A stretch of 64,000 bases of DNA from Iodobacter fluviatilis (GTDB lineage Bacteria > Pseudomonadota > Gammaproteobacteria > Burkholderiales > Chitinibacteraceae). Position numbers and translations under genes: made by a program. Under the pieces are notes generated by a model. That model saw nothing but the letters and a program-made list of their open reading frames with translations, had not been told where the DNA came from and did no database searches. Position 1 is the stretch's first letter. The number at the start of each line of letters is the position of its first letter. Location of the stretch: assembly GCF_004194535.1 (NCBI RefSeq), contig NZ_CP025781.1, forward strand, positions 4,278,001-4,342,000, in the 5' to 3' direction. This document shows, in pieces, positions 31,714-61,945 of this stretch.

Positions 31714-33129
31714 ATGTTTGATCTTCACCCAAATCAATTAACCGATGGCCATAACGAGCGGCAATTGGCTTTGCAATCTTTATTTCGTACTTTAGAAGAC
31801 CATTCGGAAGGCACGGTGATTGTGGATGAGCAATGCAAAATTGTTTGGATTAATGCCCGCTATGCCGATCGTTTTGGTTTTAAAGACCCAGCGAACGCCA
31901 TTGGCAAAGCCGTAGAAGAAGTCATTCCCAATAGCCAGCTTAGGGATGTACTTAAAACCGGCCAACCTATTTTATTAGATTTAATGGACACACCGGATAG
32001 AACGCTGGTAGTCACCCGTTTGCCGCTTAAAGACCCACAAGGCAAGCTGATTGGCGCCATTGGCTTTGCTTTATTTGATGAAATTCAATCCCTTGCGCCC
32101 TTAGTGGCTAAGTTTTCTAGCTTGCAAAAAGAGCTGGCCGTGGCGCATGAATCGCTTGCCCAAGCGCGCCGCGCTAAATATTCTTTTGGCCATTTTATTG
32201 GCGAATGCGATGCGGTGCTGGAGCTAAAACGCCAAGCCCTGCGTGCTGCACAAAGGGACGCGCCAATTTTATTACTAGGCGAAACCGGCACAGGCAAAGA
32301 GATATTGGCCCATGCCATTCATGCCGCATCGCCCCGTGCGCACAAGCCGCTGGTCACACTCAATATGGCGGCCATTCCTGAAACGCTGCTCGAGGCCGAG
32401 CTATTTGGCGCAAGCGCGGGGGCTTACACCGGTGCGGACAAAAAGGGCCGCATCGGTAAATTTCAACTCGCCCACGGCGGCACGCTGTTCCTGGATGAAA
32501 TCGGCGATATGCCGCCCGCGTTGCAAGTCAAATTATTACGCGTCTTACAAGACAAGGAATTTGAAGCGCTAGGCTCTAATCAAGTGCAGCGCTCCGATGT
32601 GCGCATCATCGCTGCCACTTCTGCGCCGCTCACCAAGCTCATTGCCGAAGGGCAATTTAGAGCTGATTTATTCTACCGCTTGAATGTACTGACCATCGAG
32701 CTGCCACCACTACGCGCCCGGCTGCCCGACCTAACGCTACTAGCCGAATCAATGATGAACAAGCTCGCCGCCAGTGGCCTTGGTCAACATCACCTTGCGC
32801 CTTGTGCCATCGCACTTTTAAGCCAATACCATTGGCCGGGCAATGTGCGTGAGCTGCACAATATTTTAGAACGGGCACTGATGCTGAGCGATAAAGCGCT
32901 ATTAGAAGCGGACGATATTGCCCCGCTCCTTTACCCCAGCGCTCAGCCCAACCACAGCAGCAGCACCCAATCACACGCCGAATCCATGCAAGCTTTCGAG
33001 CAGCAGCTCATCAATGAAGCCCTCAAAAACGGCAAAGGCCACATCCCCACCGCCGCCAAGCAACTCGGCCTAGCGCGTGCGACGCTTTATAAGAAAATTG
33101 CAAATTTCAAACTGGAGGGAGCTGGGTAA
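31714..33129 (+). CDS. PAS / sigma-54 enhancer-binding activator
   Basis: 471 residues: a PAS-like sensor (about 20-130: VIVDEQCKIVWINARYADRFG), a short coiled coil, the AAA+ domain with Walker A GETGTGKE near 189, the sigma-54 contact loop GAYTGA near 236 and Walker B GGTLFLDEIGDMP near 256, a WPGNVREL motif, and a Fis-type HTH at about 430-465 (TAAKQLGLARATLYKKI). It should activate sigma-54 holoenzyme in response to a small molecule. A near-consensus sigma-54 promoter lies at 34173-34191 before the transport/3-hydroxybutyrate operon. PAS-AAA-Fis activators controlling (R)-3-hydroxybutyrate use are known in Pseudomonas (HbcR, PA2005), so the same role is likely here. Confidence 0.9.
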   Translation: MFDLHPNQLTDGHNERQLALQSLFRTLEDHSEGTVIVDEQCKIVWINARYADRFGFKDPANAIGKAVEEVIPNSQLRDVLKTGQPILLDLMDTPDRTLVVTRLPLKDPQGKLIGAIGFALFDEIQSLAPLVAKFSSLQKELAVAHESLAQARRAKYSFGHFIGECDAVLELKRQALRAAQRDAPILLLGETGTGKEILAHAIHAASPRAHKPLVTLNMAAIPETLLEAELFGASAGAYTGADKKGRIGKFQLAHGGTLFLDEIGDMPPALQVKLLRVLQDKEFEALGSNQVQRSDVRIIAATSAPLTKLIAEGQFRADLFYRLNVLTIELPPLRARLPDLTLLAESMMNKLAASGLGQHHLAPCAIALLSQYHWPGNVRELHNILERALMLSDKALLEADDIAPLLYPSAQPNHSSSTQSHAESMQAFEQQLINEALKNGKGHIPTAAKQLGLARATLYKKIANFKLEGAG

Positions 33130-33195
33130 GTTATTCAAAGTGCTTGCATTGTGCACCTAGACAAGCGCAGCGCACTTCCCCTAAAAAAATCATAC

Positions 33196-33903
33196 TCATT
33201 GTGTCTTACGATCTTCGATGAGATGTTGGATATACAGCGGACTAGATACTCCAACACGAATTAGAATCTCTTGACTTGGAAACTTTTCCCGTAAACGTTC
33301 TGCTAGCTGACACCGATACGTTTCGTAGTTATCTAGTACTAAATCATCGAAATTAACGATAAGGTAGACCAAGCCAGTACTTAAAACCGCTTGAATTTGC
33401 TTAGCTGCCTTCTCAATAGTTGAATCAAACTTTCCTAAATACTGCTCACTAAGCTTACAGTAAATCGAACTACTGTATGCCTCACCAGAACGGCGTCTTG
33501 TTAGTTCTTCGTCAGATTCGCAAATGGTTTTTACCTCGCAATAGCGCAGTAGCCCATTGTCCTCATAAGAAATATCAGGACTTTTCTTATTCTTACCTGC
33601 AGGTACTAAACGTACATTTTTAAACCCTTCATTAATAAGATATTCATATGCCAAAGCTTCATTGAGTAAACTGAAAAAATTGTTTTTGCCTCGTATACCT
33701 CTAGGCTGGGAAAACGCCTCATGTGCATTTTGAGACATAAGCAGCCAAGACTCTTGGTCTAGTTTACGTAACGCGTTTTCATACACTTGAACCTGAGGGT
33801 AAGCGTTGGGAGTTGTCAGATTAGACTTACGCCTGCTGCTGATCCACCAGTCATCCGGAAATGCTTTCTCCAGATCTTCAACGAGTTGATTGAATCCATG
33901 CAT
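33196..33903 (-). CDS. Orphan protein with PD-(D/E)XK nuclease-like motif
   Basis: 235 residues, no signal or membrane segment. In the centre, ALAYEYLINEGFKNVRLVP is followed by KNKKSPDISYED and, after a short loop, LRYCEVKTIC. This gives the Glu-helix, PD and E-x-K elements in the order and spacing of a restriction-endonuclease-like fold. The rest is charged. It sits alone on the minus strand between the activator and its target operon, with no methylase or toxin partner, and I do not recognise its family. Possible roles are a defence nuclease or a DNA-repair-like enzyme; only the fold is supported. Confidence 0.55.
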   Translation of the reverse strand: MHGFNQLVEDLEKAFPDDWWISSRRKSNLTTPNAYPQVQVYENALRKLDQESWLLMSQNAHEAFSQPRGIRGKNNFFSLLNEALAYEYLINEGFKNVRLVPAGKNKKSPDISYEDNGLLRYCEVKTICESDEELTRRRSGEAYSSSIYCKLSEQYLGKFDSTIEKAAKQIQAVLSTGLVYLIVNFDDLVLDNYETYRCQLAERLREKFPSQEILIRVGVSSPLYIQHLIEDRKTQ

Positions 33904-34172
33904 TTGAGCATACCTTTGAGCGAGTCACGCTGAGCAATTTACTTAGACCCTCGGTTTATAACTGCAGCCTATTTAAATAAAAGGTCTAGGCGTGCGAAGA
34001 AAGAACCGTCTCCATATTGAGAAAATCGTCTCGTTTTATAGACAAGCCGTAAAGCAAGCCACCCCCTCCTTTTATTACATTTTTATGCACCACAACGGCT
34101 TTTTTCGTCTCATTCTGTAGATATCTGTTTTTTTCAAAGCGCTCAAAGCCGCTACTCCATTCATTCCTGAAC

Positions 34173-34191
34173 GCTGGCACACATAATGCTT
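34173..34191 (+). promoter_or_regulatory. Sigma-54 promoter of the transport/3-hydroxybutyrate operon
   Basis: GCTGGCACACATAATGCTT: TGGCAC at 34175-34180 matches the -24 box fully. GG (34176-34177) and GC (34188-34189) are exactly 10 nt apart and TGCT matches the -12 box. It lies on the coding strand about 145 bp before livG and near an enhancer-binding activator gene. The region 33904-34172 upstream holds no gene and is the likely enhancer region. Confidence 0.75.
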
Positions 34192-34335
34192 ACTAAGCAG
34201 ATAGGGTGATAAAAAAATACCAAACTATATTTTTCCAAAAAAATACTATAACTTTCTACCAAAGAAAGACTACCTCTGGCAAAGTAGCACGTACCCATTC
34301 ATCTCATCGCCCTTGAGCAACACCCAGCCTGACGG

Positions 34336-35115
34336 ATGGATACAATGAACTCAGATCCTATTTTACAAACGCACGGCCTTTGTAAAGAATTTAAAGGCTT
34401 TGCAGCAGTCAGTGATATTAATCTTGAAGTGGCTCGTGGCAGTATTCATGCCTTAATTGGCCCCAATGGTGCGGGCAAAACCACGGTCTTTAATTTACTG
34501 ACCAAGTTTCTATCCCCCACTTCTGGCCAAGTGATTTTTGATGGCGTTGATATCACGACGGCGCAGCCTGCCGAAGTCGCCGCCAAGGGGTTAATTCGCT
34601 CCTTCCAGATTTCAGCCGTGTTCCCCAATATGAGTGCGCTCGACAATATCCGCGTAGCGCTATTACGGATTAATGGTGGCGCGCATCGCTTTTGGCGCTC
34701 TAAGCAAGAGCTCAACGTTTTCACCGATGCAGCGATGGCCTTGCTGGGAGATGTAGGCCTTGCTGAGTTTGCCCATGTATTAGCGGGTGAGCTGGCTTAC
34801 GGCAGAAAACGCGCCTTAGAAATCGCGACTACCTTAGCGCTACAACCCAAGCTGATGCTGCTGGACGAACCCACCCAAGGTATGGGCATTGAGGATGTAG
34901 AACGCGTGACCGCACTCATCAAACGCGCGGCCGTAGGGCGCACCATTTTGATGGTGGAGCACAACCTAAAAGTGGTTTCTACCTTGGCCGACAAAATCAC
35001 CGTGTTAGCGCGTGGTCAGCATTTATCCGAAGGCGATTACGCCACTGTTTCTGCCGATCCAAAAGTGATGGAAGCCTATTTGGGCGTAAGCCCTACTATT
35101 CCCGCCACCCCATAG
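34336..35115 (+). CDS. LivG-type ABC transporter ATP-binding protein
   Basis: 259 residues of the branched-chain amino acid (HAAT) class ATPase, LivG branch. Walker A GPNGAGKTT, the LivG-typical insertion after the Q-loop (SFQISAVFPNMSALDNIRVALL), signature ELAYGRKRALEIA, Walker B LMLLDEPTQGMG and H-loop EHNLKVV. It pairs with LivF to power import through LivHM. The context (hydroxybutyrate genes in the same operon) suggests a substrate other than branched-chain amino acids. Confidence 0.92.
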   Translation: MDTMNSDPILQTHGLCKEFKGFAAVSDINLEVARGSIHALIGPNGAGKTTVFNLLTKFLSPTSGQVIFDGVDITTAQPAEVAAKGLIRSFQISAVFPNMSALDNIRVALLRINGGAHRFWRSKQELNVFTDAAMALLGDVGLAEFAHVLAGELAYGRKRALEIATTLALQPKLMLLDEPTQGMGIEDVERVTALIKRAAVGRTILMVEHNLKVVSTLADKITVLARGQHLSEGDYATVSADPKVMEAYLGVSPTIPATP

Positions 35116-35125
35116 GAAACACTGC

Positions 35126-35854
35126 ATGCTTAACCATGAGATTCAAGATCATGCGGGTGAGATGTTGCGGGTAAGTGGTTTACACGCTTTTTACGGTGAA
35201 TCGCATATTTTGCATGGGATTGATTTTGGTGTGCGCCGTGGCGAGCTGATTACCCTATTGGGCCGTAACGGCGCAGGCCGCAGCACCACACTCAAAGCAA
35301 TTCTTGGCCTAACCGGCCAGCGCGCCGGATCGATCATGGTGAATGGCCGCGAAGTGATCCGTATGCCAACGCACAAAATTGCCCATCTTGGCGTGGGCTG
35401 GTGTCCTGAAGAGAGGGCGATTTTTTCTAGCTTGAATGTAGAAGAAAACCTCAACCTGCCGCCAAAAGTACGCAGCGACGGCATGAGTTTGGAAGAGATT
35501 TACACGCTATTTCCCAACCTATGGGAGCGCCGCAAAAGCCAGGGCACAAGGCTATCGGGGGGCGAGCAGCAAATGCTGGCGATGGCACGAATCTTACGCA
35601 CCGGCGCACGCCTTCTGCTTCTGGATGAAATCACCGAAGGCTTGGCCCCAGTGATTGTTAAAAAGCTAGGCGAAACGGTAGAGCTACTTAAAGCGCGCGG
35701 CTACACCATCGTGCTGGTCGAGCAAAATTTTCACTTTGCCGCAGGCATCGCTGATCGACATTACGTCATTGAGCACGGCCAAGTGGTGGATTCAATCAGC
35801 GCAGACGAGCTATCCGCCAGTGCAAGCAGGCTAAATCATTATCTTGGGGTTTGA
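35126..35854 (+). CDS. LivF-type ABC transporter ATP-binding protein
   Basis: 242 residues, LivF branch. Walker A reads GRNGAGRST, with Arg in place of the usual Lys; I recall the same change in some betaproteobacterial LivF proteins, so it is probably tolerated. Signature RLSGGEQQMLAMARI, Walker B LLLLDEITEGLAP and VEQNFHFA are intact. AGGA precedes the ATG, 10 bp after livG. A 512-bp gap holding a GC-rich block separates it from the binding-protein gene. Confidence 0.92.
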   Translation: MLNHEIQDHAGEMLRVSGLHAFYGESHILHGIDFGVRRGELITLLGRNGAGRSTTLKAILGLTGQRAGSIMVNGREVIRMPTHKIAHLGVGWCPEERAIFSSLNVEENLNLPPKVRSDGMSLEEIYTLFPNLWERRKSQGTRLSGGEQQMLAMARILRTGARLLLLDEITEGLAPVIVKKLGETVELLKARGYTIVLVEQNFHFAAGIADRHYVIEHGQVVDSISADELSASASRLNHYLGV

Positions 35855-35979
35855 GTACAGACCTCAACTTACGCCAACTCCATACCATAGGGCAGGCTCC
35901 TACCCGCGTATTTATTCTGTATTGCTCGCGGGGTTTACTTCATGTGAGCTAAACAGTTTGGTTCTTAGCAGCAAACGAA

Positions 35980-36290
35980 GAAAAGTGATGACAACTACGC
36001 TCTCGACACGGGGCTTAAGCCTCCCCTTGAAACACGCCGAAGCGAGGAACAAGCGGGGCGGGGGATCGCTTGGGAGCGAGGAACGAGCCAATCCCGCCCG
36101 CCGCCGACTCGATTGTCCGCAGCGCAGGGGCCTTCGTGTTTTGCTGTTGTCGCTTGGCTTCGTTTCTTGGCGAAGCAAGAAAGGAAGGCCCAGCGGTGGC
36201 TGCCGCACCAAAATCAACGTGCCGAAGGCACTAAAAACGTCTTTTGGTTGGCGTTTGAAATATTTCATATCGGAGGTACACCCGCCCTAC
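35980..36290. repeat. GC-rich interspersed block inside the transport operon
   Basis: A GC-rich stretch unlike the flanks, with short inverted pairs such as CTTCG...CGAAG around 36158-36190. Its translations (for example FLAKQERKAQ, then HQNQRAEGT) are of the kind found in spurious ORFs from interspersed repeats in many proteobacteria; this is from memory. No gene is proposed. It may reduce read-through between livF and the binding protein. Confidence 0.5.
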
Positions 36291-36366
36291 GACAGCCATT
36301 TTGATCATTACAAAAAACACCTTACCGCAGTCCCCGCAAGATCGACCTCAAACGGAGATACACCCT

Positions 36367-37566
36367 ATGCAAAACTGTAAACCACTTGTTCTTGCTGTAG
36401 CGCTTGCCCTACCTGCCACCACATTTGCTGGCCCTTTCTCTGGCGACATGGTCAAGATCGGTATTCTGACGGATATGTCCGGCGTATATGCTAGGGTAGG
36501 CGGCAAAGGCTCGGTGATCGCGGCGCAAATGGCGATTGCTGATTTTGGTGGCAAAGTACTGGGAAAACCCATTGAGCTAGTCAGTGCAGATCACCAAAAC
36601 AAGGCGGATATCGGCGTAGGTAAGGCGCGGGAGTGGTTCGACACCGAAGGCGTAGATATGGTGAACGACTTACTGAATTCTGGCGTGGGTATTGCAGTAC
36701 AAAAACTAGGGGCGGAGAAAAAGCGCATCACCATTAATAATGGCGCAGGCTCTACCGCGCTGACCGGCAAGGAATGTAGCCCTTACGGCGTGCATTACGC
36801 TTACGACACCTATGCCTTGGCTAAAGGCACCGCTACCGCGCTAATGAAGCAAGGTTTAGATAGCTGGTTCTTCCTACAAGCAGATTACGCCTTCGGTGCG
36901 GCACTACAAGGCGATGCCAGCAAGATTGTCGCGGCCACCGGTGGCAAGGTGCTTGGCACGGTAAAACACCCGCTTTCCTCTACTGATTTCTCCTCTTACT
37001 TACTGCAAGCACAAAACTCTAAAGCCAAGGTGGTAGGCCTTGCCAATGCAGGCGCTGATTTTGTAAACGCAGTGAAGCAAGCCAAAGAATTTGGGCTACA
37101 GCAAACCATCGCAGGGCTATTGGTATTCGATAGCGATATCAAAGCACTGGGCCTGAATGCTGCGCAAGGCATGACATTTACCACAGCCTATTCATGGGAG
37201 TTAAACCCTCAAATGGAAGCGTTTGGTAAGAAATTTTTCGCCAAAGCGGGCTTTATGCCAACGATGGATCACGCAGGTGTTTACTCCAGCACCCTGCATT
37301 ATCTAAATGCAATTAAAGCAGCAGACACCGATGACGCCGATACAGTGATGAAGAAAATGCGTGAAACCAAGATCAATGACTTCTTCGCTAAAAACGGTGT
37401 GATCCGCGAAGACGGCCGCATGGTGCACGATATGTATCTGGTAGAAGTGCTTAAACCTAGCGAATCCAAAGGCGCATGGGATCAGCTCAAACTCGTTGCC
37501 ACCATCCCTGGCGATGTCGCCTTCAAGCCGCTATCTGCCAGCGAATGCCCATTAATTAAGAAATAA
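36367..37566 (+). CDS. HAAT-type periplasmic substrate-binding protein
   Basis: 399 residues from the ATG at 36367 (GGAG nine nt before); the longer frame from 36301 would hide the signal peptide, which ends at ATTFAG. A Peripla_BP_6 fold: VKIGILTDMSGVYARVGGKG at the start, LVSADHQNKADIGVGKAREW, and DGRMVHDMYLVEV near the C-terminus. Such proteins deliver ligands to LivHMGF-type importers. Proteins of this branch often bind organic acids; with 3-hydroxybutyrate genes downstream, 3-hydroxybutyrate or an oligomer is my guess. Confidence 0.9.
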   Translation: MQNCKPLVLAVALALPATTFAGPFSGDMVKIGILTDMSGVYARVGGKGSVIAAQMAIADFGGKVLGKPIELVSADHQNKADIGVGKAREWFDTEGVDMVNDLLNSGVGIAVQKLGAEKKRITINNGAGSTALTGKECSPYGVHYAYDTYALAKGTATALMKQGLDSWFFLQADYAFGAALQGDASKIVAATGGKVLGTVKHPLSSTDFSSYLLQAQNSKAKVVGLANAGADFVNAVKQAKEFGLQQTIAGLLVFDSDIKALGLNAAQGMTFTTAYSWELNPQMEAFGKKFFAKAGFMPTMDHAGVYSSTLHYLNAIKAADTDDADTVMKKMRETKINDFFAKNGVIREDGRMVHDMYLVEVLKPSESKGAWDQLKLVATIPGDVAFKPLSASECPLIKK

Positions 37567-37569
37567 GTG

Positions 37570-37645
37570 TCGTGCGTAGAATGGGTGGAGCAAAGCGATG
37601 CCCATCAATATTGCCAAGCACGATGGGTATCGCCGCATCGCTGAG
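37570..37645. repeat. Hairpin-forming interspersed repeat
   Basis: GCGATGCCCATC at 37595-37606 pairs with GATGGGTATCGC at 37622-37633; the flank CGTAGAATGGGTGGAGC precedes it. I recall GTAG-ATGGGTGGAGC-GCGATACCCAT repeats as dispersed elements in many proteobacteria. Placed after the binding-protein gene, the stem could stabilise its mRNA relative to livHM. Confidence 0.55.
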
Positions 37646-37715
37646 CGGGGTAACCCTCGCACGCAGAACGGCCCCTCCCCCTTCAATCCTCCTTTTATTG
37701 CCACCGAGGTAGCGC

Positions 37716-38621
37716 ATGGACATCACCTTGCAAGCCATCATGTCGCAAGCCTTACTCGGCCTAAACAATGGTGCTTTTTATGCCTTACTCAGCCTTGGCC
37801 TTGCCGTGATTTTTGGCATGCTTAACGTCGTCAACTTTGCCCACGGCGCTTTTTATATGCTAGGGGCGTTTGTGGCATTACTAGGCTACGACCAATTAGG
37901 ACGTTGGCTAGGTGATGAAAGCATTCGTATGTCTTTCTGGGTGGCGCTGATTATCGGGCCAATCATAGTGGGTTTGCTTGGCGTGTTGATTGAAAAAACC
38001 ATGCTCAGCCGCCTGTATAAAGTCGACCATCTTTATGGCCTATTGCTCACTTTTGGGCTGGCACTTATTTTTGAAGGGGTGCTGAGCAATTATTTCAATA
38101 TGGCCGGAGAGCCTTACAACGGCAAACCAGAAATCTTAGAAGGCGCCATTAATCTAGGTTTTATGGTGTTTCCTAAATACCGGCTTTTTTCGATTGTGCT
38201 ATCGCTTTCAGTTTGCTTTGCCGTTTGGTATTTGATTGAGAAAACCAAACTAGGATCGCACCTCAGGGCCGGCACAGAAAACCCAGACGTCACCCGCGCT
38301 TTTGGTATTGACGTGCCCTCCTTACGTACCCTTACCTATTTTTTAGGCGTTGCTTTGGCTGGGCTTGCTGGTGTGGTGGCCGCCCCGATCTACTCGGTTA
38401 GCCCCAAGATGGGATCAGATTTAATCATTATCGTGTTTGCCGTGGTGGTCATTGGCGGCATGGGCTCAATCATGGGGGCTATTCTGACGGGTATTGCGCT
38501 GGGGCTATTAGAAGGCTTGGTAAAAGTGTTTTACCCACCGCTCGCCAATACTGTGATTTTTATTGTGATGGCGCTGGTATTGCTTTGGCGTCCTTCTGGC
38601 TTATTTGGTAAGGAAAATTAA
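37716..38621 (+). CDS. LivH-type ABC transporter permease
   Basis: 301 residues, eight predicted TM helices. LivH features are LNNGAFYALLSLGLAVIFGM and VNFAHGAFYMLGAF, the cytoplasmic EAA-like loop RAFGIDVPSLRTLTYFLG, and GGMGSIMGAILTGIALG. GAGG precedes the ATG. Its stop overlaps the livM start by one base, so the permeases are made as a coupled pair. Confidence 0.93.
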   Translation: MDITLQAIMSQALLGLNNGAFYALLSLGLAVIFGMLNVVNFAHGAFYMLGAFVALLGYDQLGRWLGDESIRMSFWVALIIGPIIVGLLGVLIEKTMLSRLYKVDHLYGLLLTFGLALIFEGVLSNYFNMAGEPYNGKPEILEGAINLGFMVFPKYRLFSIVLSLSVCFAVWYLIEKTKLGSHLRAGTENPDVTRAFGIDVPSLRTLTYFLGVALAGLAGVVAAPIYSVSPKMGSDLIIIVFAVVVIGGMGSIMGAILTGIALGLLEGLVKVFYPPLANTVIFIVMALVLLWRPSGLFGKEN

Positions 38622-39616
38622 TGAATGCGCCAGTGATTAAACTCGCCTCTGTAGCCTCGCTACAAAAAAAGAAAACCCACTTCACCCCGTGGATCATCGC
38701 CTTGCTACTGGCTTCAGTTGCGCCATTTATAATTTACCCCATTTTTGCCATGGAATTGATGTGCTTTGCCCTCTTTGCCTGTGCCTTTAATTTATTACTC
38801 GGCTTTGGCGGCCTGCTTAGTTTTGGTCATGCGGCTTTTTTTGGCGGTGCGGCTTATCTCTGCGGGCATGCCATTAAGCATTGGGGCTTTAGTCCTGAGC
38901 TAGGTATTTTATTTGCCATGCTAGGGGCCGCTATTTTGGGGCTCGCCATCGGCAGTATCGCCATCCGCCGTCAAGGCATTTACTTTGCGATGGTCACCTT
39001 GGCACTGGCGCAGATTGTGTTTTTCTTATGCTTGCAGCTGCCTTTTACCGGCGGCGAAGATGGCTTGCAAGGTATCCCTAAAGGCCACCTATTTGGCTTA
39101 ATTGATTTATCCAGCACCGTTAGCGTAGGCCAGCAACAATTGCCGCTTGCTCTGTATTTTTTTGTGCTGGCCATTACCTTTGGCGGCTACTGGCTGATTT
39201 GGCGCACCGTGCATTCACCCTTTGGCATGGTGCTTAAAGCTATCAAAGAAAACGAGCCACGCGCGCTGTCTTTGGGCTATCAGGTAAACCGCTACAAACT
39301 TGCCACCTTTGTACTCTCTGCCGCCTTGGCGGGCCTGGCCGGTGCAACGAAAGCGCTGGTCGTGGGCTTGGCTTCACTCAGCGATGTGTCTTGGCATATG
39401 TCCGGTGAAGTGGTGCTAATGACCTTGCTTGGTGGTATGGGAACGCTACTCGGCCCGCTCGTCGGTGCCGTTACCGTCAGCACTTTGCACCATGAGCTGG
39501 CCTCGCTGGGCTCATGGGTTACCGTGACCATTGGCGTGGTGTTTGTGGTCTGCGTGATGGCCTTTAGACGCGGCATTGTGGGCGAAATCGCTTACCGATT
39601 GAAACGAAGCTTTTAA
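38621..39616 (+). CDS. LivM-type ABC transporter permease
   Basis: 331 residues with about nine TM helices. LivM features are LLLGFGGLLSFGHAAFFGGAAY, IRRQGIYFAMVTLALAQ, FTGGEDGLQGIP and GMVLKAIKENEPRALSLGY, the last being the ATPase-contact loop. Completes the HAAT transporter LivG-F-(SBP)-H-M. Followed 50 bp later by the 3-hydroxybutyrate oligomer hydrolase. Confidence 0.93.
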   Translation: MNAPVIKLASVASLQKKKTHFTPWIIALLLASVAPFIIYPIFAMELMCFALFACAFNLLLGFGGLLSFGHAAFFGGAAYLCGHAIKHWGFSPELGILFAMLGAAILGLAIGSIAIRRQGIYFAMVTLALAQIVFFLCLQLPFTGGEDGLQGIPKGHLFGLIDLSSTVSVGQQQLPLALYFFVLAITFGGYWLIWRTVHSPFGMVLKAIKENEPRALSLGYQVNRYKLATFVLSAALAGLAGATKALVVGLASLSDVSWHMSGEVVLMTLLGGMGTLLGPLVGAVTVSTLHHELASLGSWVTVTIGVVFVVCVMAFRRGIVGEIAYRLKRSF

Positions 39617-39665
39617 CGATAAGGGCTACGCCTAGCTCTTTATTCCCCACACATCGAGGTGCACG

Positions 39666-41768
39666 ATGCGATTACTTTTTACAGGTTTTGCCCTTTTATT
39701 ATCTGCCTGCAATAGCAACGATAGTTTAAATGAAAATATCCGCCCCTCTTGGCTAGGCAGCGTCAGCAAAACCAGTTTAGATGGCAATAGCAACGATTTA
39801 CTCACCGCAGGCTTAGGTAAAAGTGGTTTGTCCCTTGCACTGCAAGCCTACGCCAATCCTAATCAGCCTACCGCTACCGAGCTACGCCGTGCGGCGATTT
39901 ACAACAATTACCGCGCCTTGGTGGATATCAGTAGCAGCGGTGGTTATGGCAGGCTCTACGGCCCCAACATTGACATCAGCTGCAACGATACTTTGGGTGA
40001 GGGCAAGATTGCTGGGGATGAATACCTGGCTTACAGCGACGATGGCAGCGGCAAGCAAAATGTCACACTGATGGTGCAGATTCCCTCTAGCTTCAACAAA
40101 AGTACCCCTTGCGTAATTACCGCAACATCATCGGGCTCTAGAGGGGTTTATGGCGCAATCGCCGCCTCGGGTGAATGGGCGCTTAAACATGGCTGCGCTG
40201 TTGCTTACGCCGACAAAGGCTCTGGAATTGGCATCCATGATTTAAGCAGCGATACGGTGAATCAAATAGATGGCTTGCGCGTTAGCCGCAGCCTTAATAA
40301 TGGCCATTTTAGCGCCGATCTTTCCCCCGCCGAATTAGTCGATTTTAATTCCCAATACCCCTATCGCCTCGCCTCTAAACACAGCCACTCGCAGCAAAAC
40401 CCAGAAAAAGACTGGGGTAAAAACACGCTACGTGCGGTTGAATTTGCTTTTTGGTTGCTCAATGAAAAATACGGCAGTTTGCAAGGGGATACGCGGCTGG
40501 CTGATTTTGCCAACCCAGCCAGCGTTACGGTGATTGCCGCTAGCGCATCCAATGGCGGTGGAGCCGCTCTGGCCGCCGCCGAGCAAGATAGCAAAGGTTT
40601 AATCGATGGCGTGGCCGTGAGCGAGCCTCAAGTTCAGCCCTTTACTACGGGTAATTTAAATATTCGCCAAGGGGCGGCCACCATGCCCAGCATTGGTAAG
40701 CCGTTAATTGATTATTTTACGCTGGCCAATCTTTACCAGCCCTGCGCGGTGCAGTCGGCGCGCTTAAGTGGGGCAAATTCGGCCTTTGGCAGCGCGGTAT
40801 CCGCCACACTGGGCAGCGCCCGCTGTGCCTCACTCGCGGCCAAAGGCTTAGTCAATGGCAGTACGCTTGAAGCACAGGCTAGCGATGCTTATAGCAAGCT
40901 CATTGCAGCGGGCTGGTTAGCCGAGGGAGATGCCTTACACGCCAGTCATTACGGCCTAAGCGCCACCCTTGGCGTGGCACTAACTTATATCAATGCGTAT
41001 GGGCGTTTTTCAGTAAAAGACAATATTTGCGGTTATAGCTATGCATTTAGCAATGCCAGCGGCGACATTACCGCGCCCAATAGCGTGAGCTTGGCGGGTA
41101 TCTTTGGCAACGGCAACGGCGTGCCGCCCACCGCGGGGATATCCATTATCAATAATTTATCGGTAGGTATTGCCAAGGCCGATGCGTTTTCTATTTCGGC
41201 CTCCACCAACACCGCTGATTACAATATCGATGGCGCAATTTGCCTGCGTAAGCTTGCCACAGGGCTTAATCCGCAAACCGGCGCGGCATTAACCGGCAAT
41301 GAAAAACTGCTTGCTGATCGCGTAGCCAGCGGCCTGAAGGAAGTACAACTCAGCGCCAAGCTGCAAGGCAAGCCGGCAATTATTGTGGCAGGGCGCTCGG
41401 ACACGCTGATCCCAGTAAACCATGCTGCCCGTGCTTATTACGCACTTAACCAAGCGAGCGAAGGCAGCGCCTCCAAGCTACGGTATATCGAAGTCACCAA
41501 TGGCCAGCATTTTGATAGCTTCTTAGCACTAAGTGGTTTTCCAACGCGCTTTATCCCGCTGCATGTCTATGCTGGCCGTGTACTCGATGCGATGTGGGCT
41601 CACCTAACGACCGGCGCAGCACTGCCAGATAGCCAATTGGTTCGCACCACGCCACGTACAGTTGCCACGGATAACTTGAATATCAGCGCCCTGCCCGCCA
41701 TTGCCAGCCCTGTAGCCACAGGCGATGCGATTCGCTTTAGTGGTACTACTCTTACCATTCCCCAATAA
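39666..41768 (+). CDS. 3-hydroxybutyrate oligomer hydrolase (lipoprotein)
   Basis: A 700-residue protein of the D-(-)-3-hydroxybutyrate oligomer hydrolase family (about 700 residues is the usual length). It opens with a lipoprotein signal MRLLFTGFALLLSAC, so it should be anchored in the outer or inner membrane facing the periplasm. Seen are NDLLTAGLGKSGL, the nucleophile region VIAASASNGGGAALAAAE (Ser in S-N-G-G) and AIIVAGRSDTLIP with the acid, and NGQHFDSF with the likely His. It cleaves linear 3-hydroxybutyrate oligomers from PHB breakdown into monomers. GAGGTG precedes the ATG. Same operon as the importer before it and bdhA after it. Confidence 0.88.
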   Translation: MRLLFTGFALLLSACNSNDSLNENIRPSWLGSVSKTSLDGNSNDLLTAGLGKSGLSLALQAYANPNQPTATELRRAAIYNNYRALVDISSSGGYGRLYGPNIDISCNDTLGEGKIAGDEYLAYSDDGSGKQNVTLMVQIPSSFNKSTPCVITATSSGSRGVYGAIAASGEWALKHGCAVAYADKGSGIGIHDLSSDTVNQIDGLRVSRSLNNGHFSADLSPAELVDFNSQYPYRLASKHSHSQQNPEKDWGKNTLRAVEFAFWLLNEKYGSLQGDTRLADFANPASVTVIAASASNGGGAALAAAEQDSKGLIDGVAVSEPQVQPFTTGNLNIRQGAATMPSIGKPLIDYFTLANLYQPCAVQSARLSGANSAFGSAVSATLGSARCASLAAKGLVNGSTLEAQASDAYSKLIAAGWLAEGDALHASHYGLSATLGVALTYINAYGRFSVKDNICGYSYAFSNASGDITAPNSVSLAGIFGNGNGVPPTAGISIINNLSVGIAKADAFSISASTNTADYNIDGAICLRKLATGLNPQTGAALTGNEKLLADRVASGLKEVQLSAKLQGKPAIIVAGRSDTLIPVNHAARAYYALNQASEGSASKLRYIEVTNGQHFDSFLALSGFPTRFIPLHVYAGRVLDAMWAHLTTGAALPDSQLVRTTPRTVATDNLNISALPAIASPVATGDAIRFSGTTLTIPQ

Positions 41769-41807
41769 GCATGCAGCCCCCTGCCCACCTTACTTCAGGA
41801 GTTAAAC

Positions 41808-42584
41808 ATGCACGTTTTGCTTGGTAAAACAGCACTGATTACTGGCTCTACCAGCGGTATTGGCCTAGGCATTGCCCGCGCTTTGGCTGATGCCGGTGCA
41901 AATATTGTGTTAAATGGTTTTGGTGATGTGCTAGCCGCACGCCAGCACGTTGAACAAGCTGGGGGCAAGGTTCGTTACCATGGCGCAGATTTACGCTACC
42001 CCGAGCAAATTAGCGAGTTAATTAATTATGCCAATCATGAATTTGGCGGCGTTGATATCTTGGTAAATAACGCAGGGATTCAGCATTTAGCCAATATTGA
42101 AGATTTTTCTATTGAGCGCTGGAACAGCATTCTTGCGCTTAATTTGTCTGCAGGGTTTCATACCAGCCGCCTGGTTGTGCCCGCTATGCGTCAACAAAAC
42201 TGGGGGCGAATCATCAATATTGTTTCTGTGCATGGTTTGGTGGCCTCTGCCAGTAAATCCGCTTATGTGGCGGCCAAGCATGGCATGATAGGGCTAACCA
42301 AATCTGTGGCTTTAGAGCTTGCCCAAACGGGGGTGACTTGCAATGCAATCTGCCCCGGCTGGGTGTTAACACCTTTAGTTGAGCAACAAATTGAAGCCAA
42401 GGCCAAACAACAAGGCATCAGCCATATCGAAGCCCAGGCACAGCTTTTACTAGAAAAACAACCTTCTGGGGTTTTTGTTACACCAGAGCAAATTGGCGCG
42501 CTTCTGCTGTTTTTATGCAGTGATGCCGCCCAAGAAGTACGCGGAGCCGCATGGAATATTGATGGCGGCTGGATTGCGCAATAA
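41808..42584 (+). CDS. bdhA: 3-hydroxybutyrate dehydrogenase
   Basis: 258-residue classical SDR. NAD-binding TGSTSGIGLG (residues about 10-19), NNAG near 91, catalytic Ser in IINIVSVHGLVAS and Tyr-x-x-x-Lys in YVAAKHG. The C-terminal block CPGWVLTPLVEQQI and QPSGVFVTPEQIG are the marks of bacterial D-3-hydroxybutyrate dehydrogenase, which oxidises (R)-3-hydroxybutyrate to acetoacetate with NAD+. AGGAG precedes the ATG. Acetoacetate activation genes are not in the window. Confidence 0.93.
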   Translation: MHVLLGKTALITGSTSGIGLGIARALADAGANIVLNGFGDVLAARQHVEQAGGKVRYHGADLRYPEQISELINYANHEFGGVDILVNNAGIQHLANIEDFSIERWNSILALNLSAGFHTSRLVVPAMRQQNWGRIINIVSVHGLVASASKSAYVAAKHGMIGLTKSVALELAQTGVTCNAICPGWVLTPLVEQQIEAKAKQQGISHIEAQAQLLLEKQPSGVFVTPEQIGALLLFLCSDAAQEVRGAAWNIDGGWIAQ

Positions 42585-42635
42585 ACCACCGATCACCCAG
42601 CAAAATACAATTAATTTTAAATAACGGAAAACAAC

Positions 42636-43583
42636 ATGCGACAACTCAGCCCTAAAATTACACCTTGGCTTAACCAGTTTAACCAACAAATGGCCGTATT
42701 AGAGGCCAATGGTTATAAGCCAACTTGCACCAATATTCGCGAGGGGCTGGCCTATTTAACGGCTGTTTTTGTAACTGACATTCCTAAAATAGCTTGGGTG
42801 CAAGACGATCTGGTTAAATCCACGGGCTACCCAGTGCCGGTGCGTATTTATCACCCTAGCCCTGATCATGCGCTGCCGGTCTTGGTCTATTTTCATGGTG
42901 GCGGGCATATGGCAGGCAGCATTACCGTTTACGATGCGATATGCCGCAAAATTGCTCAGGCCGCCAAGCATATTGTTATTTCTGTGGACTACCGCCTAGC
43001 CCCAGAGTGCCCTTATCCTGCCGCCGTAGAAGATGCTTATCATGTAGTTAAGAATATATGGCACGTATTAGACGATAGAAAGCTAAACTACCTGCCCCAG
43101 CTTTCTATTGGTGGTGATTCCGCAGGCGGGGCGCTTTCTGCTACCGTGGCTAACAAATTACAATTTGAGCCCAATACTCCCTTGCATGCTCAAGTACTGA
43201 TTTACCCAAGCCTTGATTACACTCTGAGTTCGGCTTCTGTAGTTGAAAACGGCGTGGGCAACTTGTTAAGCACAAAAAAAGTGACTTGGTACTTTAATCA
43301 TTATTTCCAACATCAAGAAGACAGAAAAACAGCATCCCCGCTCTTTGCAGAATTTAGCAACAAACTCCCACCCACCTTAGTCATCAGCGCCGAATTTTGC
43401 CCGCTAAGAGATGAGGGGATTGATTATTTGGCTAAGCTTAAAAAAGTGGGCGTTGCCACCGATCATTTACACTTCAGTGATTTACCCCATACGTTTCTCA
43501 ATTTAGAAAACCTAGTCAAAGAAGAGTGTCAGCGAACCTATCAAAGCATTGGGGCTTGGCTTAATCTAAATAAATCTATCTAG
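42636..43583 (+). CDS. Alpha/beta hydrolase, HSL/acetyl-esterase type
   Basis: 315 residues of the hormone-sensitive-lipase family. Oxyanion motif YFHGGGHMAGS (HGGG), nucleophile elbow GGDSAGG, catalytic Asp in PLRDEGIDY and His in PHTFLN. It hydrolyses short acyl esters in the cytosol; in this operon it may act on hydroxybutyrate dimers or esters that enter through the importer. The TAG stop lies inside the CTAG end of a repeat, so the last residues (KSI) may have been set by that insertion. Confidence 0.88.
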   Translation: MRQLSPKITPWLNQFNQQMAVLEANGYKPTCTNIREGLAYLTAVFVTDIPKIAWVQDDLVKSTGYPVPVRIYHPSPDHALPVLVYFHGGGHMAGSITVYDAICRKIAQAAKHIVISVDYRLAPECPYPAAVEDAYHVVKNIWHVLDDRKLNYLPQLSIGGDSAGGALSATVANKLQFEPNTPLHAQVLIYPSLDYTLSSASVVENGVGNLLSTKKVTWYFNHYFQHQEDRKTASPLFAEFSNKLPPTLVISAEFCPLRDEGIDYLAKLKKVGVATDHLHFSDLPHTFLNLENLVKEECQRTYQSIGAWLNLNKSI

Positions 43584-61871: not shown

Positions 61872-61945
61872 GCGGGTGTCGTATAATGGTAATACCCTAG
61901 CTTCCCAAGCTAGCGCCGAGGGTTCGATTCCCTTCACCCGCTCCA
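61872..61945 (+). tRNA. tRNA-Gly (anticodon CCC)
   Basis: A 74-nt cloverleaf: acceptor GCGGGTG / CACCCGC, D arm with AATGGTAAT, anticodon stem CTAGC / GCTAG with loop TTCCCAA (CCC at 61904-61906), T loop GGGTTCGATTCCC, discriminator T and encoded CCA. It reads GGG codons. It stands alone next to a restriction gene. Confidence 0.96.

Follow-up and report, generated by a model that had tools for sequence, protein, structure and literature searches.

A putative locus for scavenging foreign polyhydroxybutyrate

We analysed a window of 64,000 nucleotides, whose positions are used below, from the 4.59 Mb genome of Iodobacter fluviatilis (G000). In it, genes for an ABC importer of the HAAT type, a 3-hydroxybutyrate (3HB) oligomer hydrolase, a 3HB dehydrogenase (BdhA) and an esterase follow one another behind a sigma-54 promoter. 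Our reading, to which we give a probability of roughly 0.7, is that they form a scavenging locus for foreign poly(3-hydroxybutyrate) (PHB): a core for 3HB uptake and oxidation, completed by an add-on and controlled by a local sigma-54 switch. PHB and related polyesters serve bacteria as storage polymers and are also sold as biodegradable plastics. Their depolymerases are well known; the route by which the building blocks of PHB enter cells is still poorly known.

According to this proposal, a depolymerase encoded elsewhere in the genome, for which secretion and this role are predicted, would free 3HB oligomers and monomers, and the lipoprotein hydrolase would cut the oligomers that arrive in the periplasm. 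The importer, with 3HB as its predicted substrate, would bring monomers, and perhaps short oligomers, into the cell, where the HSL-type esterase may cleave leftover dimers and BdhA would oxidise 3HB to acetoacetate; these enzyme activities are predicted ones. A PAS-domain activator, sensing 3HB or a product as the presumed inducer, would bind two upstream sites and turn on the promoter. Support in the sequences comes from gene order, the conservation of promoter and repeats, a lipobox on the hydrolase, a linkage of importer and bdhA that crosses phyla, and joint absences in one Iodobacter genome, G003.

The first-pass annotation of the window had named the activator, importer genes, hydrolase, bdhA and esterase, and Pfam and NCBIfam searches found every one of them where it had been placed, all on the forward strand. 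The single operon that it described agrees with the gene order, and a single transcript is likely from the gene layout, despite two gaps: 512 bp between livF and the binding-protein gene, with a repeat described at the end of this text, and 149 bp between the latter and livH. The activator does lie upstream as described; an open reading frame (ORF) of 235 amino acids that had gone unmentioned intervenes on the reverse strand (33196-33903). BdhA (41808..42584, 258 amino acids) exceeds the NCBIfam cut-offs of PRK12429 (355.6 against 258 bits) and TIGR01963 (349.6 against 307 bits), and falls below that of PRK13394 (324.4 against 340 bits). The HSL-type alpha/beta-hydrolase, our esterase (42636..43583, 315 amino acids, by eye without a signal peptide), scores 187.6 bits against an Abhydrolase_3 gathering score of 25; its nearest NCBIfam model, LipP1, is below cut-off (261 of 350 bits).

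Comparison within Iodobacter

Our Iodobacter set comprises nine genomes, eight of which have the hydrolase and the activator. In these eight, the order activator-livGF-binding protein-livHM-hydrolase-bdhA-esterase is identical. The ninth, G003, retains importer, bdhA and esterase one after another; the hydrolase is absent, there is no activator match at E 1e-110, and the promoter is without the GG of the -24 element. Because G003 branches from within the genus, and because its promoter region still has one intact repeat, we interpret this state as a loss. G003 is also devoid of an extracellular polyhydroxyalkanoate (PHA) depolymerase, which the other eight genomes encode outside the operon. 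Two PhaC_N genes are present both in the window's genome and in G003; since G003 has kept them, the absence of the hydrolase tracks the enzyme for external polymer and not the cell's own PHB synthesis. It thus seems that importer and dehydrogenase make up a 3HB core and that the lipoprotein hydrolase is an accessory for foreign PHB.

The hydrolase (39666..41768, 700 amino acids) matches PF10605 over its full length (residues 12-699; 964.5 bits, for a gathering score of 27) and is single copy in its genome. It had been described as membrane-anchored; a lipobox, LLSAC with Cys15, agrees with this as a prediction, and all eight genus copies have one. Residues S295, D579 and H615, invariant across eight aligned hydrolase sequences, are candidate active-site residues for 3HB-oligomer hydrolysis. 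A sequence search of the PDB with the hydrolase gave three hits, none of them significant (E values of 0.18 upwards), and a structure model built from four close sequences was set aside (predicted local distance difference test, pLDDT, 29).

One could suppose that the hydrolase works on PHB stored by the cell itself, its position beside the importer being accidental. Both PhaC_N genes of the genome would be in keeping with this, as would the description of the Cupriavidus necator 3HB-oligomer hydrolase, a relative, as intracellular in excerpts of its report (PMC2864759). We nevertheless hold it to be very improbable: the lipobox is found in eight of eight genus copies, and G003 has both PhaC_N genes but neither the hydrolase nor a secreted depolymerase.

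Linkage outside the genus

The findings on metagenome-assembled genomes (MAGs) rest on loci in named records, the best 80 of 578. Six MAG loci, from Deltaproteobacteria, Geobacteraceae and Holophagaceae, combine an importer of 58-73% identity per subunit with a bdhA of 57-59%. A sigma-54 activator at 37-40% identity is found in five of them, L089 being the exception; such identity may reflect the shared AAA+ domain alone. In L083-L085, described as one cluster pair, a CoA-transferase A/B-like pair lies between livM and bdhA (over cut-off in L085); L082 has a thiolase gene, and L086 a CoA-transferase upstream of livG. Taken together and as annotated, bdhA, CoA-transferase and thiolase lead from 3HB to acetyl-CoA. 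Binning of MAGs can err, yet several MAGs agree.

A tree of binding proteins was built on 96 rows, from which L078-L080 were excluded, being on the same contigs as genus genomes. Binding proteins with a bdhA homologue of at least 50% identity within the stretch were called bdhA-linked. All 15 of them (nine from Iodobacter) fell in one clade of 24 rows (support 100/99); among the other 72 rows, some with short stretches, none had such a homologue, the next best being L141 (45%) and L116 (42%). The MAG record of L078 is labelled Janthinobacterium and shares its contig with G002 of the window's genus; it is probably mislabelled.

The same loci bear on two other ideas about what is imported. The importer might carry another short carboxylate (acetoacetate, or other hydroxy or keto acids), 3HB being incidental. 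Remoter relatives stand beside acyl-CoA synthetases, a GMC oxidoreductase or an enoyl-CoA hydratase, and an acyl-CoA synthetase adjoins livG in L063 and L162; the recurrent partners in the clade, however, are bdhA, CoA-transferase, thiolase, hydrolase and depolymerase, that is, a 3HB route, and we take this explanation to be possible but unlikely. Alternatively, and in partial overlap with our proposal, whole 3HB oligomers would be imported and cut by the cytosolic esterase, the lipoprotein hydrolase being secondary. The esterase does stand in the operon with no evident signal peptide, and is kept in the hydrolase-less G003; but G003 is also without a secreted depolymerase and may meet no oligomers, while the six MAG loci show neither a hydrolase nor an esterase match, which fits monomers. 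We judge this decidedly unlikely.

Across a set of 399 genomes of the order, a binding-protein match (1e-90) was found in 113, seven of them at an identity of at least 68%. Three of these seven, namely the window's own genome, G145 and G153, have the hydrolase beside the importer; in G145 (L060) the arrangement is importer-hydrolase-porin-extracellular PHA depolymerase. Taking the hydrolase as the starting point, neighbours were counted at 25 non-genus loci with flanks (24 genomes, one of which has two copies). This count leaves aside L033, L071 and L073-L077, on short contigs or fragments, and the matches in G175 and G231. A HAAT importer adjoins the hydrolase at five of the 25 loci and belongs to two lineages. 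The second lineage, found in L050, L055 and L056, has binding proteins 75-85% alike and about 23% like the window's; in L056 a PHA depolymerase gene lies between binding protein and livG, and in L050 livM and hydrolase are separated by the gene of an AMP-binding ligase. Activator homologues of 50-52% occur in five of the 25 stretches (L040, L056, L058, L059 and L063).

On these grounds we lean towards the view that the HAAT clade consists of ABC importers dedicated to 3HB, distributed over Burkholderiales and MAG Deltaproteobacteria, Geobacteraceae and Holophagaceae, and that PHB scavenging is assembled from exchangeable modules. The modules are seen as exchangeable because one hydrolase family occurs together with either of two distantly related HAAT lineages, and its remote members have other transport genes beside them.

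Hydrolase and extracellular depolymerase

The hydrolase is over the cut-off in 31 of the 399 order genomes. A type-1 or type-2 extracellular PHA depolymerase is present in 24 of these 31, compared to 83 of the 368 others (odds ratio 11.8, Fisher p 1.2e-9, phylogeny and genome size being ignored). The set sizes used (31, 42 and 83) agree with the tallies of the listings.

At L072 (G249), the hydrolase match is in two pieces, closely followed downstream by a match to an extracellular PHA depolymerase. Distant PF10605 members are encoded on plasmids of Pseudomonas luteola (L184) and Microvirga ossetica (L185), next to a citrate:proton symporter and a binding protein of the tripartite tricarboxylate transporter (TTT) type; both loci also contain an AtuA-family gene and a LysR regulator. 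These plasmid homologues are 38-42% identical, and their substrate may differ.

The importer and its binding protein

The importer has the composition of the HAAT type: two ATPases of the LivG and LivF types, two BPD_transp_2 permeases and one Peripla_BP_6 binding protein. Importers of this kind mostly carry the annotation of amino-acid transporters. LivG (34336..35115) matches ABC_tran and BCA_ABC_TP_C, and LivF (35126..35854) ABC_tran, with UrtE and LivF as top NCBIfam models, both under cut-off. The binding protein (36367..37566, 399 amino acids, 354.5 bits) has a probable signal peptide in about its first 24 residues, and is followed by permeases of the LivH (37716..38621, 140 bits) and LivM (38621..39616, 114 bits) types. 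All five subunits fall short of the NCBIfam cut-offs of the Liv family: 186 of 362 bits for LivG, 175.7 of 441 for LivF, 76.9 of 379 for LivH, 89.1 of 366 for LivM and 28.4 of 477 for the binding protein. The importer lies below the listed Liv/Urt cut-offs and, unlike LivKHMGF, UrtABCDE and the systems of the Rhodopseudomonas palustris aromatic-acid binding proteins, is linked to 3HB catabolism.

The model of the binding protein reached a pLDDT of 90.2 (below 50 for residues 1-24), and its best solved relatives are 3i09 and 3n0w. T102 and E226 of LivJ, which presumably hold the alpha-amino group of the ligand, are replaced in each of the 96 family rows, T102 by G, A or S and E226 by L or M; the positions are soft, as E226 is opposite a gap in the profile alignment (17% identity). 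The position of S79 is S in 82 rows and T in 14.

That this is an ordinary branched-chain amino-acid importer, located by chance beside PHB genes, appears most improbable to us. The HAAT fold and the permease and ATPase families would suit it, amino-acid binders are found among the fold neighbours, and the depositors of 3i09 and 3n0w named both as branched-chain amino-acid binders. Yet the linkage to bdhA is repeated across MAGs of several phyla and survives the loss of hydrolase and activator in G003, and the two LivJ residues are replaced, within the softness of that alignment.

Promoter, repeats and activator

The sigma-54 promoter with exact GG-N10-GC spacing proposed in the first-pass annotation was confirmed: the -24/-12 element CTGGCACACATAATGCTT is located at 34174..34191 on the forward strand and is conserved in the genus. 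By count, the motif is unremarkable, and alone it is not significant: the loose form (up to two mismatches) gives 54 matches in the window for 55 expected, and the genus-derived pattern one match for 0.33 expected, a level reached by 24 of 100 shuffles. What makes the site credible is its conservation in all eight activator-bearing Iodobacter genomes, where CTGGCACACATNNTGCT is found upstream of livG, roughly 122 to 344 bp away, and not the motif count.

Two repeats precede the element on the same strand. The putative distal activator site GTCTCGTTTTATAGAC (34028..34043) is an exact match to the consensus GTCTCRTTYTRTAGAC, and the putative proximal site (34107..34122) has one mismatch to it; from start to start, the copies are 79 bp apart, and the proximal one is 67 bp before the sigma-54 element. 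Consensus and genus sigma-54 pattern were both derived from these same loci. Here again the case is made by conserved position rather than by count, as two repeats with up to three mismatches are seen in the window for 1.05 expected and 27 of 100 shuffles reach two. Both repeats are present with 0-1 mismatch each in seven of the eight activator-bearing genus genomes, whereas in L047 the proximal one is kept and the distal one is weak (four mismatches). The proximal repeat has 0-1 mismatch in all eight, and one exact copy is left in G003. In the window's genome, exact or one-mismatch repeats are confined to the two at the locus. The paired repeats look like binding sites of the adjoining activator, and the latter would in that case act locally. 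A regulon extending beyond the locus was rejected, total repeat matches in the genome numbering six, compared to 15 for a reversed-pattern control.

The activator (31714..33129, forward strand, 471 amino acids) has an orthologue in eight of the nine Iodobacter genomes. It combines PAS_4 (residues 31-119), Sigma54_activat (162-329) and HTH_8 (427-463), that is, the PAS, AAA+ and Fis helix-turn-helix anatomy of the HbcR type, beside a sigma-54 element upstream of a bdhA operon. The HbcR (PA2005)/bdhA regulon of Pseudomonas likewise has one N-terminal PAS domain and places 3HB dehydrogenase under sigma-54 control; the likeness is one of architecture, and the Iodobacter operon adds the ABC importer, oligomer hydrolase and esterase. 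HbcR is activated by (R)-3HB according to excerpts of two reports (PMC10482368, PMC13390443), and its PAS domain is placed at residues 17-123 in the accessible part of a third (PMC8694187). In Caldimonas caldifontis (L150), a 53% activator homologue is encoded shortly after livM of a related importer.

At distant loci, sigma-54 elements were scored against 300 shuffles each. They were good at L060 and L159 (four shuffles reaching the score) and L084 (one), marginal at L161 (28), L083 (34), L085 (39) and L160 (48), and no better than chance at L063 (240), L162 (270), L082 (280), L086 (130), L088 (131) and L089 (141).

Evidence against the proposed reading

Several observations weigh against our proposal. 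Linkage of the importer with hydrolase or bdhA is patchy. Twenty of the 25 non-genus hydrolase loci are without an adjoining HAAT importer, and the neighbours annotated at other hydrolase loci (14 besides the importer-linked ones, or partial) are mostly unrelated genes. The importer-hydrolase neighbourhood, whose conservation the first-pass annotation wanted checked, is found in eight of nine Iodobacter genomes, and in only five of 25 loci outside. As evidence that would contradict its interpretation, it had cited orthologous operons devoid of hydrolase and bdhA; four of the seven order genomes at or above 68% (G278, G198, G363 and G265; L159-L162) have neither in 18-20 kb, and the other three do not show this state. 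Two of these four have an activator homologue at 48-50%. Overall, its interpretation is supported in part.

Of 31 hydrolase loci outside the genus, only 14 show a lipobox by a simple pattern, although many of the others are fragments or have unsure starts; the importer-linked hydrolase of L063 has no lipobox at the chosen start. The state of G003 is a single loss event, and the esterase is confined to Iodobacter among the stretches examined. Replacement of the LivJ amino-group residues is common to the entire family, and so is not specific to 3HB; nor does the modelled fold decide the ligand, since aromatic-acid, amino-acid, amide and urea binders come close together in the fold search. Co-regulation of the depolymerase is not supported, as the genus depolymerase genes have no repeats upstream and lower sigma-54 scores (5-10 of 13 positions, the best, 10, in L173, compared to 11 at the importer). 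Finally, sensing of 3HB is unsettled even for HbcR, whose PAS domain is given an autoinducer-type ligand by motif in the accessible part of PMC8694187.

Relation to known systems

Taken singly, the parts of the locus belong to known kinds; what would be new is the substrate predicted for the importer, and the module as a whole. In the titles and abstract beginnings searched, with subscription papers mostly outside, no ABC importer for 3HB was recognised, which is a weak negative. PhaY of Cupriavidus and Ralstonia belongs over its full length to the same family (PF10605) as the window's hydrolase, which differs from the C. necator enzyme by its lipobox and its place in an importer operon. Uptake of terephthalate by TphC, of the TTT type, likewise relies on a binding protein dedicated to the monomer of a polyester, in excerpts of its report (PMC8556258); transporter class and ligand are different, and the comparison is one of role only. 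For extracellular degradation of medium-chain-length PHA in Burkholderia, the accessible part of a 2026 report names no genetic element for product uptake and proposes passive diffusion (PMC13101487). If our reading is true, an importer clade that has an activator and a promoter of its own would help to close this uptake gap for the short-chain polymer, the common label 'branched-chain amino acid' would be corrected, and a candidate 3HB-responsive regulator-promoter pair would be available for biosensors.

Other features of the window

An Rfam scan of the window gave a tRNA at 61872-61942 alone. The 235-amino-acid ORF between activator and promoter has no Pfam or NCBIfam match; it contains a PD...EVK stretch reminiscent of what we take to be the motif of PD-(D/E)XK nucleases. 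Among the stretches examined, it is found elsewhere only in G008 (L048), where it is 100% identical. The activator of G008 is 99% identical to that of the window, compared to 78-97% for the remaining operon genes, which suggests that the activator-ORF segment was exchanged recently. A repeat of about 240 bp lies in the gap between livF and the binding-protein gene (about 36007-36245); in several other Iodobacter it is found also, or instead, 5' of the hydrolase gene, in either orientation, as befits a predicted mobile intergenic repeat of the genus.

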